Of a stretch of DNA of 64,000 nucleotides, positions 38,934-41,644 are shown piece by piece; position 1 is the first letter of the stretch; each line of letters starts with the position of its first letter. Under the pieces are notes generated by a model, which had not been told where the DNA came from, made no database searches, and saw only the letters and a program-made list of their open reading frames with translations. The stretch lies in the NCBI RefSeq assembly GCF_001458395.1, contig NZ_CYSR01000030.1, positions 186,001 through 250,000 of the forward strand, written 5' to 3'. This DNA comes from Leisingera aquaemixtae. GTDB taxonomy: Bacteria > Pseudomonadota > Alphaproteobacteria > Rhodobacterales > Rhodobacteraceae. A program made the translations under genes and the position numbers.

Positions 38934-39539
38934 TCACTTTGCGGACTCTCCCGCGCCCATGTGCTTGTCGACCATTCGTTGCACCATCGGCGCAAAGTGC
39001 CAGTAATCCGGGGTCTCCATATCCGCCCGCTTCCCAGCCTCATCCAGATAGCGCACCGCGATGATCTGCTTGAGGTTCGGGTTCTTTTCGAACTCGGTCG
39101 CTTCTTGCGGTGTCATCGGCCCGCCTTGCAGGTTCAGCGAATGGATGGAGGCCTCTGACAGCCGATTGAAATATTCCGGTTTAGTGGCGCAGAGGTACCG
39201 CTTGGCGGCCACGTGATAGCGCACGCAGTCGGTGATCACTGACGGGAAGAACTGCTCCAGCACTTCGGCGCCGGCCTCTTCATGAAAGCGGTCTTCGGTG
39301 TCGTCCATGGAGAACGTCCCGAACTCGCTGGTGAAATGCCCGATGTCATGCAGGAGCGCGCCCACGATGATCTCCTCAGGCTGGCCGTTCTGCTCGGCAA
39401 TTGCGGCGCCTTGAAGCATGTGTTCCGCCATGGTGACAGGTTCCCCCAGATACTCCTCGCCGCCGCGGCGGTCGAAGATGCCGCCGATGAATTCAACGAT
39501 AGTATCGCGGGTCAGCTTGCTGGCGTCCGGCTTGCTCAT
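38934..39539 (-). CDS. tmpB: HD-domain mixed-valent diiron oxygenase, TmpB-like
   Basis: A 201-residue HD-domain protein best read as TmpB, which cleaves 1-hydroxy-2-(trimethylamino)ethylphosphonate to glycine betaine and phosphate. The residues Y30 and E33 (EEYLGEP) match the Tyr/Glu pair that marks PhnZ-type oxygenases as opposed to ordinary HD hydrolases. Likely iron ligands are H40, H64, D65, H86, H109 and D166. It lies 3 bases behind a gamma-butyrobetaine-hydroxylase-like gene on the same strand, the arrangement of the described TmpA-TmpB pair. The exact substrate is inferred from this pairing; 2-aminoethylphosphonate (PhnY*/PhnZ) is the main alternative. Confidence 0.8.
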   Translation of the reverse strand: MSKPDASKLTRDTIVEFIGGIFDRRGGEEYLGEPVTMAEHMLQGAAIAEQNGQPEEIIVGALLHDIGHFTSEFGTFSMDDTEDRFHEEAGAEVLEQFFPSVITDCVRYHVAAKRYLCATKPEYFNRLSEASIHSLNLQGGPMTPQEATEFEKNPNLKQIIAVRYLDEAGKRADMETPDYWHFAPMVQRMVDKHMGAGESAK

Positions 39540-39542
39540 GGC

Positions 39543-40676
39543 TCAGCCCTCCAGTTGTGCGTTCAGCACGTTCAGGGATGACAGCAGCCCGTCCTTGTCG
39601 GCGTAGCAGCCCTGCAGCCAGCGCGTCCCCGCCCCGGAATAGCCTAGCCGCGCGTGCAGGACACGGGTGTTGTCGACGATAAAGCTTTCCCCCGGCTCCA
39701 GCTTGAACGAAACGCCCATCGACGGATCGTCGATGATTTCACCCAGACGGCGGTAGGCGGCGTAATAGCCTTCCATCTTCTCAAACGGGATGTCCGTGAA
39801 GGGTGCCGAAGACCGGTTATTGAACCGTACCGCAATCAACTCTCCGTCGGGTGACAGCTCAATCATCGGACGGCGCGCGTGCAGATGCACACCGTCAGAC
39901 CCTTTGTATTCAAACCGCGCAGAGTAGCCTGCCAGCAGCGCAAACCCTTCCGGATTTTCGTCACGCAGACGCCCGGCGGCGCGGAAACCGTCCACCACGA
40001 TGCTATCGCCGCCCTCAGCCGAGTTTTCGAGGCAATAGAGGATCTGAAGGGAGGGCACCGGATCACGGTAGGGGTTGTCGGTATGCGCCTGCAGGCCCAG
40101 GCCGGTATAGGCGAGGTTGGTGGGATTCACCTCGGTGCGCACTTCGAAATACTTGCCGTAATTGGTCTCGCGGACAAAACCGAACATCTCGGCGCAGTCA
40201 ATCAGCGCGCCTTCCTTGACCGGACCGTTCACCAGCTTGGCAAAGCCGAGCCGGGCAATCGCGTCCAGCCAGCCGCGTTTCGCCTTGGGGTCCGATTGCA
40301 CGCTGTTCCAGTCAAACGTCGGGGCTGGCTGGCTGCTGTTCCAAGTCTCGACGCCCGGCGCCGTGCGGCCAAATTCAAACTCTTTATCAACGTCATAGGC
40401 GTTTGACTTCAACCAATCCCCAGGGAAGGTCACAGTCTTGCCCTCGGGCGCGAACGTCACCGTCAGGCTGCCGTCTTCGACCAGCGCGGTGCTGATCCTG
40501 GTGTCATCCGGAATGTCGCCAATGGTGATCAGCCGCTGGCCGTTTCCAGGGGCGCGGGTTTCGGGGTCCAGCGCGTTGTCGCGCAGCCAGATCGCATGAA
40601 AACGGCACAACTGGCCGTCGTCGAATGTCAGGGTCAGAAAGCTGCCGGACGCGTCAGCAGTCACGGAACGGGGCAT
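39543..40676 (-). CDS. tmpA: TauD/BBOX-like Fe(II)/2-oxoglutarate hydroxylase, TmpA-like
   Basis: A 377-residue dioxygenase with an N-terminal gamma-butyrobetaine-hydroxylase-like domain (residues 1-95, WLRDN at about 30-34) and a C-terminal TauD fold. The iron facial triad is H198, D200 (QAHTDN) and H341 (RVLHARLG). The zinc cysteine cluster of mitochondrial BBOX is replaced by DNALDPET. Standard pipelines would call it gamma-butyrobetaine hydroxylase (carnitine synthesis); with the adjacent TmpB-like oxygenase it more likely hydroxylates C1 of 2-trimethylaminoethylphosphonate. GGAG precedes the ATG. A LysR regulator gene is divergent, 98 bases away. Confidence 0.8.
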
Positions 40677-40693
40677 GGGGGTTCTCCGGTTGG

Positions 40694-40757
40694 CCTTGTT
40701 CTCCCTTGTTCTGGTAGCGCGGTTGAGCCATCAAGAGAACGACGGAAACAAGGGTTT
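40694..40757. promoter_or_regulatory. Repeats in the tmpA-lysR intergenic region
   Basis: CCTTGTTCT occurs twice, at 40694-40702 and 40704-40712, with 10-base periodicity. The palindrome TTGAGCCATCAA is at 40723-40734, and an inverted copy of the repeat core, AACAAGGG, lies near 40747-40754. These are good candidates for binding sites of the divergent LysR protein, although no canonical T-N11-A site is certain. Confidence 0.45.
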
Positions 40758-40774
40758 TAGAGTTAGGTTTTCTA

Positions 40775-41644
40775 ATGGCTAAGAAAGTCACCAAACAAGG
40801 GCTGCCGCCGCTTGATTGGCTCAAGGTGTTTGAGGCAGCGGGGCGGCATGGCAGTTTCACCGCCGCAGCAGAGGAATTCGGCGCCACCCAGGCCGCGGTC
40901 AGCCAGCGGATCCGCAATCTCGAGTCCTGGCTGGGCCGTCAGCTCTTCATCCGGTCTGCGCGCGGGGTGTCGCTGACCGTGGACGGCGAAAGCTACCTGC
41001 CGCTGGTGCATGAGTCCCTGCGCGCGCTGGAGCAGGGAACCGAGAACCTGTTTGGCCAAACAGTCCGGGAGCTGCGGATTGCGGGCTTGCCGTCGCACCT
41101 GGAAATGCTTTTGCTGCCGCGGCTTGCAGCCTTTTCTAAAACCTTTCCGGATTTGCGGCTGGTCACTGAAACCGTGCCCCGGCGGCTGGACTTCGAGGCC
41201 GCGGACGGCGCCCTGCAGATCCGCTATGGCCGCGGCGGCTGGGAGGGCCGGCAGGAAGCGCTTCTGGCAAGCGAGGTGCTGCAGCCGATGACCGCGCCGG
41301 GCCAGGCCGGGCACTGGCGGCAGCTGCCCGCGATCGAGCTGCGCGGCGAGCGGCCGGGCTGGGCGGAATGGTCGCGTGTGACGGGCGAGGCTGCGCCGGA
41401 GGCCGGGTCACTGTCCGTTGATTCCATGGCCCATGCCCTGCGGGCGGCGCGCCTGGGCCTGGGGGTTGTACTGGGGTCCAGGGTGCTGGCGGCAAACTTG
41501 CTGCAAACCGGTCAGCTGGACTGCGCCCGGGCGCCGGAACTGCCGACAATCGACGGTTACTGGCTGACCTGGCCGCCCAGCCTGGGCAAGTCCAAGCGTC
41601 AAAGCGAAATACTGACCGCTTTGACCTTTGTCTTGCAGGGGTGA
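40775..41644 (+). CDS. LysR-family transcriptional regulator (GcvA-like)
   Basis: A 289-residue regulator with an N-terminal winged helix-turn-helix (about 13-72: LPPLDWLKVFEAAGRHGSF followed by AAEEFGATQAAVSQRI) and a C-terminal effector-binding domain. The helix region is of the GcvA/AmpR type. It is transcribed divergently from the tmpAB-like genes, the usual arrangement for a LysR activator of a catabolic operon, so a trimethylaminoethylphosphonate-related or betaine-related inducer is likely but unproven. The start codon follows an AT-rich stretch without a strong ribosome site. Confidence 0.88.
   Translation: MAKKVTKQGLPPLDWLKVFEAAGRHGSFTAAAEEFGATQAAVSQRIRNLESWLGRQLFIRSARGVSLTVDGESYLPLVHESLRALEQGTENLFGQTVRELRIAGLPSHLEMLLLPRLAAFSKTFPDLRLVTETVPRRLDFEAADGALQIRYGRGGWEGRQEALLASEVLQPMTAPGQAGHWRQLPAIELRGERPGWAEWSRVTGEAAPEAGSLSVDSMAHALRAARLGLGVVLGSRVLAANLLQTGQLDCARAPELPTIDGYWLTWPPSLGKSKRQSEILTALTFVLQG

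Follow-up and report, generated by a model that had tools for sequence, protein, structure and literature searches.

The locus and its closest characterised relatives

Two adjacent genes of Leisingera aquaemixtae, one for a BBOX-like Fe(II)/2-oxoglutarate oxygenase and one for an HD-domain protein, lie beside a divergent LysR-type gene, and the question they raise is whether the three form a unit for the breakdown of a quaternary phosphonate, as the original prediction proposed. PMC10574752 and PMC8177086 describe a route in which 2-trimethylaminoethylphosphonate is first hydroxylated by TmpA and the hydroxylated compound is then cleaved by TmpB, giving glycine betaine and phosphate. In the window (the whole stretch of DNA that was analysed, 64,000 nucleotides long), the three genes are placed as follows.

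38934..39539, minus strand: tmpB, HD-domain diiron (R)-1-hydroxy-2-trimethylaminoethylphosphonate oxygenase, 201 aa, matching 6NPA and NF049941
39543..40676, minus strand: tmpA, Fe(II)/2-oxoglutarate 2-trimethylaminoethylphosphonate hydroxylase, 377 aa, matching 6NPB and NF049936
40775..41644, plus strand: LysR-type regulator gene, divergent from tmpA, 289 aa, matching PF00126 and PF03466

The predicted layout holds, with three ORFs at these positions, a gap of 3 bases between tmpA and tmpB (39540-39542), and the LysR gene divergent. All three ORFs were picked by a codon-usage gene caller, itself trained on these families, and all three match far beyond chance in family and PDB searches. When solved structures were searched with phmmer, the oxygenase matched PDB 6NPB, the TmpA of Leisingera caerulea, at 782 bits, and the HD protein matched PDB 6NPA, TmpB, at 412 bits; the identities, counted over ungapped alignments, were 338/377 (89.7%) and 182/196 (92.9%), respectively. 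The TmpA and TmpB of L. caerulea (PDB 6NPA-6NPD) were reportedly described by Rajakovich et al. in 2019. The second-ranked solved matches were human gamma-butyrobetaine dioxygenase (BBOX), at about 173 bits, for the oxygenase and PhnZ, at 108 bits, for the HD protein. The proposed identity as TmpA and TmpB is thereby supported, and a closer similarity to BBOX or PhnZ, which had been named in advance as the outcome that would speak against it, was looked for in these alignments and the opposite was found. In NCBIfam release 20.0, the source of the equivalog models for both enzymes, the window TmpA scored 592 bits against NF049936 (cut-off 400) and the window TmpB scored 361.8 bits against NF049941 (cut-off 300). 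Because both cut-offs are passed, current automatic annotation should find the pair, contrary to the expectation that it would be missed. Plasmid records of relatives with 62-65% identity still carry the older names gamma-butyrobetaine dioxygenase or TauD/TfdA. As judged from its sequence, the window pair is a close copy of an already characterised system, known, read correctly, and largely ordinary; the locus extends this phosphonate route to another Leisingera-clade genome and to many Ruegeria and relatives.

Relatives and conservation of the active sites

TmpA exceeded its curated cut-off in 38 of 295 genomes sampled from the family, the window's own included. The related loci compared here number 117 (L033-L149), seven of which were taken as duplicates, their rows being drawn identical in the tree, leaving 110 distinct loci. 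The loci were mapped by the codon-usage gene caller; L061 and L067 were left unmapped, giving 108 distinct mapped loci, or 116 mapped loci when the duplicates and the window are counted. The genomes with names are those of the best 80 of 577 confirmed tmpA loci, and are mostly titled Leisingera or Ruegeria. In the tree, the window TmpA clusters with ten Leisingera-clade rows (SH-aLRT 96), and its nearest row among the named loci (best 80 of 577) is L070, Leisingera aquaemixtae, at 90%. One further record, L079, bears the title Nocardioides marinus, which is probably mistaken: G238, a genome from the genus to which the window belongs, has exactly the same TmpA.

The Fe(II) ligands H198, D200, and H341 are present in the window TmpA and invariant in all 117 related loci. 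The residues N187, N287, and R288, given as phosphonate ligands in the relevant part of PMC9296572, are likewise all present; N187 and R288 are unchanged in 117/117 loci, and position 287 carries N in 106 loci, A in 7, and S in 4. PMC8177086 describes the YxxE loop and the diiron motif H...HD...H...H...D of HD oxygenases, and the TmpB residues were assigned to that motif by order. In the window TmpB, the loop is found as Y30/E33 and the motif as H40, H64-D65, H86, H109, and D166, as in 6NPA. Y30, E33, H40, H64, D65, H86, and H109 are unchanged in all 116 loci with a TmpB match, the only one of the 117 in which no such match was found being L144, a 3.4-kb contig. H198, D200, and H341 and the Y30/E33 pair had been predicted at exactly these numbers.

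These comparisons bear on the possibility that the oxygenase is a gamma-butyrobetaine dioxygenase of carnitine metabolism, standing next to an unrelated HD phosphohydrolase. The window TmpA does share the Fe/2OG family with human BBOX, which also acts on a substrate with a quaternary ammonium group, and its score of 415.7 bits is about 1 bit above the cut-off (414.75) of TIGR02409, the older model for gamma-butyrobetaine dioxygenase. However, both of these matches are far below those to the TmpA model and to the solved TmpA, R288, an added phosphonate ligand of TmpA according to part of PMC9296572, is kept in every one of the 117 loci, and the gene directly after tmpA is tmpB in 107 of the 108 distinct mapped loci, which makes a carnitine enzyme very improbable. 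We give equally little credence to a PhnY*/PhnZ system degrading 2-aminoethylphosphonate. Its chemistry is similar, namely a two-step oxidative C-P cleavage with an HD diiron oxygenase carrying a YxxE loop (PMC8177086, in part), both systems have this loop and the HD motif in common, and PhnZ does match the window TmpB. Nevertheless, the 108 bits of that match place PhnZ far from TmpB in sequence when set against 412 for the solved TmpB, the TmpA/TmpB substrate is quaternary, and the window TmpB passes neither the general Phn-HD model TIGR03276 (200.9 vs 214.6 bits) nor the hydroxymethylphosphonate model NF052439 (143.7 vs 300 bits).

The TmpA/TmpB assignment is therefore the one we retain. 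The window pair shares with the L. caerulea pair two adjacent genes, near-equal protein lengths, and all checked active-site residues, and differs from it by substitutions at 39/377 and 14/196 residues, none of them at a checked residue. With 90% and 93% identity and all checked residues kept, it is very likely, on grounds of orthology, that the same two reactions take place in the window strain. TmpA would hydroxylate C1 of 2-trimethylaminoethylphosphonate with the help of Fe(II), O2, and 2-oxoglutarate, and TmpB, as a mixed-valent diiron HD oxygenase, would then split the C-P bond to yield glycine betaine and phosphate. Taken as a whole, the locus is best explained as an orthologue of the TmpA/TmpB pathway, with the divergent LysR most likely its switch and uptake probably encoded elsewhere, and we hold this explanation with high confidence.

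The divergent LysR gene, a probable regulator, and the shared spacer

The window LysR contains both the HTH_1 domain (PF00126) and the LysR substrate-binding domain (PF03466). Its best NCBIfam model is GcvA, under the cut-off (172.1 vs 288), and its 60.8 bits fall short of the 341.1 required by TIGR03339, the model for LysR regulators of aminoethylphosphonate genes. The original prediction offered this gene as a candidate regulator, and it has proved to be a conserved divergent neighbour: a homologue stands divergent from tmpA and less than 400 bp away in 83 of the 110 distinct loci (90 of all 117). The spacer in these 90 loci is 84-144 bp long, with a median of 98. Such a homologue is absent beside tmpA in 27 of the 110 distinct loci, and was found in none of the 11 loci in which N287 of TmpA is replaced by A or S. 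In the window, the spacer and a candidate site within it are as follows.

40677..40774: shared lysR-tmpA control region, 98 bp, from spacer alignments
40763..40775, plus strand: TTAGGTTTTCTAA, a candidate dyad for LysR-type binding (T-N11-A) that extends into the first base of lysR

The dyad TTAGGTTTTCTAA is the sole TTAGN5CTAA in the 64-kb window, where 0.08 would be expected. Such dyads were also sought in 72 of the 80 named loci (best 80 of 577), within the sequence upstream of tmpA; seven loci with tmpA elsewhere in the locus and L132 were left out, and since the sequences are related, the counts are not independent. TTAGN5CTAA occurs in 10 of these 72 regions, all of the Leisingera clade, the Ruegeria site TTAATTGTNNTAA occurs in 39 others, and neither exact dyad occurs in the remaining 23. 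Since the whole 1.58 Mb of the same 80 loci (again the best 80 of 577) holds only 11 TTAGN5CTAA and 39 TTAATTGTNNTAA sites, all but one lie upstream of tmpA. The Leisingera and Ruegeria dyads differ both in sequence and in their place within the spacer, and we regard these clade-specific dyads as candidate LysR binding sites. Judged by eye, the spacer alignments fit an arrangement with a promoter downstream of a LysR site, but the consensus scan found no sigma-70 promoter.

Section 7.3 of PMC10574752 describes LysR proteins that lie beside some other phosphonate genes and respond to the substrate. PhnR, PalR, and AepR resemble the present case in that a LysR gene adjoins a substrate-specific phosphonate operon (same section), and differ from it in that the window LysR is under the cut-off of TIGR03339, the aminoethylphosphonate LysR model. 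No account of a tmp regulator or of a LysR partner was found in the literature searched, which mostly left subscription papers outside. It might be argued that the enzymes are indeed TmpA and TmpB, but that the LysR protein controls only itself or another gene, tmpAB being controlled otherwise, for example by phosphate starvation. The 27 distinct loci that lack the divergent gene indicate that tmpAB persists without it, which fits such an arrangement. On the other hand, the divergent position is kept in 83 distinct loci although the genes beyond differ, the dyads lie in the spacer shared by lysR and tmpA, and other phosphonate genes have substrate-responsive LysR regulators beside them, as that section reports, so we consider separate control improbable. 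The LysR protein is thus the probable regulator of tmpAB; in the presence of the phosphonate, or of the hydroxylated product, it would turn on the two genes by binding dyads in the 98-bp spacer. The conserved LysR and the spacer dyads allow one to ask directly whether it is the substrate, and not a shortage of phosphate, that induces the route. Just past the LysR gene and convergent with it, a PilZ-domain ORF was seen at 41681-42040 on the minus strand of the window.

A third gene in relatives

In 50 of the 108 distinct mapped loci (54/116 with duplicates and the window counted), tmpB is followed on the same strand by a ureidoglycolate-lyase-like gene of about 221 aa, for which the nearest relative of the window provides the example.

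L070:11740-12405: ureidoglycolate-lyase-like third gene, its start overlapping the end of tmpB

The C-terminal part of its protein matches ureidoglycolate lyase (PF04115), no NCBIfam cut-off is passed by the protein, and its AlphaFold model is poor (mean pLDDT 45.5). Among the named loci (best 80 of 577), the ten of the Leisingera clade that are closest to the window are L070-L078 and L080; nine of them have the gene, the exception being L072. It is absent from the corresponding place in the window (38834-38933), and a search of the window's own genome gave two weak short matches only (E 0.006, 28% identity). Across the 295 sampled family genomes, the third gene occurs in 17, of which 15 also have a TmpA over the cut-off, the other two being G036, whose copy has stops, and G165. 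The hypergeometric P for this co-occurrence is 3e-13, which is too optimistic because shared ancestry is ignored. In 8 of the 15 genomes with TmpA, the gene is unlinked to tmpA, being either on a different contig or at a distance of over 150 kb. The neighbourhoods of unlinked copies gave no clue to function; the same three neighbour families recur around the gene in L170, L172, and L173, and we take them to be purL-, bolA-, and grx-like.

This distribution makes the third gene a lead, as a candidate third component of the tmp system. Two findings count against such a role: 23 of the 38 TmpA genomes have no third-gene match, and internal stops interrupt the gene in G100, which has a single copy, as well as one of the two copies in G089. 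We speculate, as a tentative and rather doubtful extension, that the gene encodes an unrecognised third tmp enzyme that is kept even when unlinked, and that the window strain has a cut-down pathway under a substrate-sensing LysR switch.

A TmpA clade with a changed phosphonate ligand

The 11 loci with A or S at position 287 (L057-L060, L062-L067, and L069) form a clade of their own, their TmpA proteins making up one side of a branch with 10 rows and an SH-aLRT of 99, while L069 is too short for the tree. All 11 proteins exceed the TmpA cut-off; L069 (G119) does so only as the sum of its pieces, at 400.6 bits. In L063, the neighbours of tmpAB match haloacid-dehalogenase-like, PLP ammonia-lyase-like, PcaB-, PcaC-, and PcaD-like proteins, as well as a Tet-like MFS transporter, a zinc alcohol dehydrogenase, and an enolase-superfamily dehydratase; some of these matches stay below the model cut-offs. 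Each of the dehydrogenase and dehydratase families occurs in 9 of the 11 loci and is absent from all other loci examined, and in 8 of the 11 a Tet-like MFS gene stands upstream of tmpA. It is plausible that this clade uses a different substrate, and since it has another operon, the TmpA equivalog model may mix substrates. The best leads come from the relatives rather than from the window; the third gene may point to an unrecognised step and this clade to mixed function within one annotation family.

Uptake and the genomic surroundings

The original prediction considered the transporter to be missing from the window, but in relatives the unit does not regularly include a linked phosphonate transporter, so that 'missing' is not the right word here. 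A crude scan by hydropathy and ABC motif covered the 116 mapped loci, among which the window is counted, and detected a transporter-like gene no more than four genes away from tmp in 58 of them. A BenE-type gene recurs in 10 loci, duplicates included, on the tmpA strand at a distance of two to four genes upstream, past the divergent LysR in loci that have one; it was rejected as a phosphonate transporter by its type, as was a ZnuA-type metal ABC system in 4 loci. In one locus, L056, a gene for a TRAP permease stands immediately upstream in the same orientation. Uptake is probably the task of a transporter encoded elsewhere. In the window's own genome, three PhnD-type binding proteins exceed the TIGR01098 cut-off and two further matches are weaker, all elsewhere than the tmp locus, and the gene for the PhnJ subunit of C-P lyase is also found elsewhere. 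The only strong match to TIGR03276 in this genome is tmpB itself, at 200.7 bits in this search and so under the cut-off, with one weak match of 30 bits on contig C21.

On the far side of tmpB, a convergent gene encodes a SufS-type cysteine desulfurase that passes TIGR01979, separated from tmpB by 100 bp in the window, and a 194-aa membrane protein was seen in the window and in the suf-linked relatives. Between the two convergent gene ends, the following element was read from the sequence.

38855..38880: perfect 11-bp inverted repeat with a 4-nt loop

This repeat was not among the matches of the consensus terminator scan; a similar hairpin sequence is present in related loci, and the repeat is possibly a terminator shared by sufS and tmpB. 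Elsewhere in the window's own genome, two matches with identical scores (C7:4635-4814 and C7:113346-113525) are separated by 108.7 kb on a contig of 127 kb, which points to duplication of the contig end, perhaps on a circular replicon, or to a repeat.
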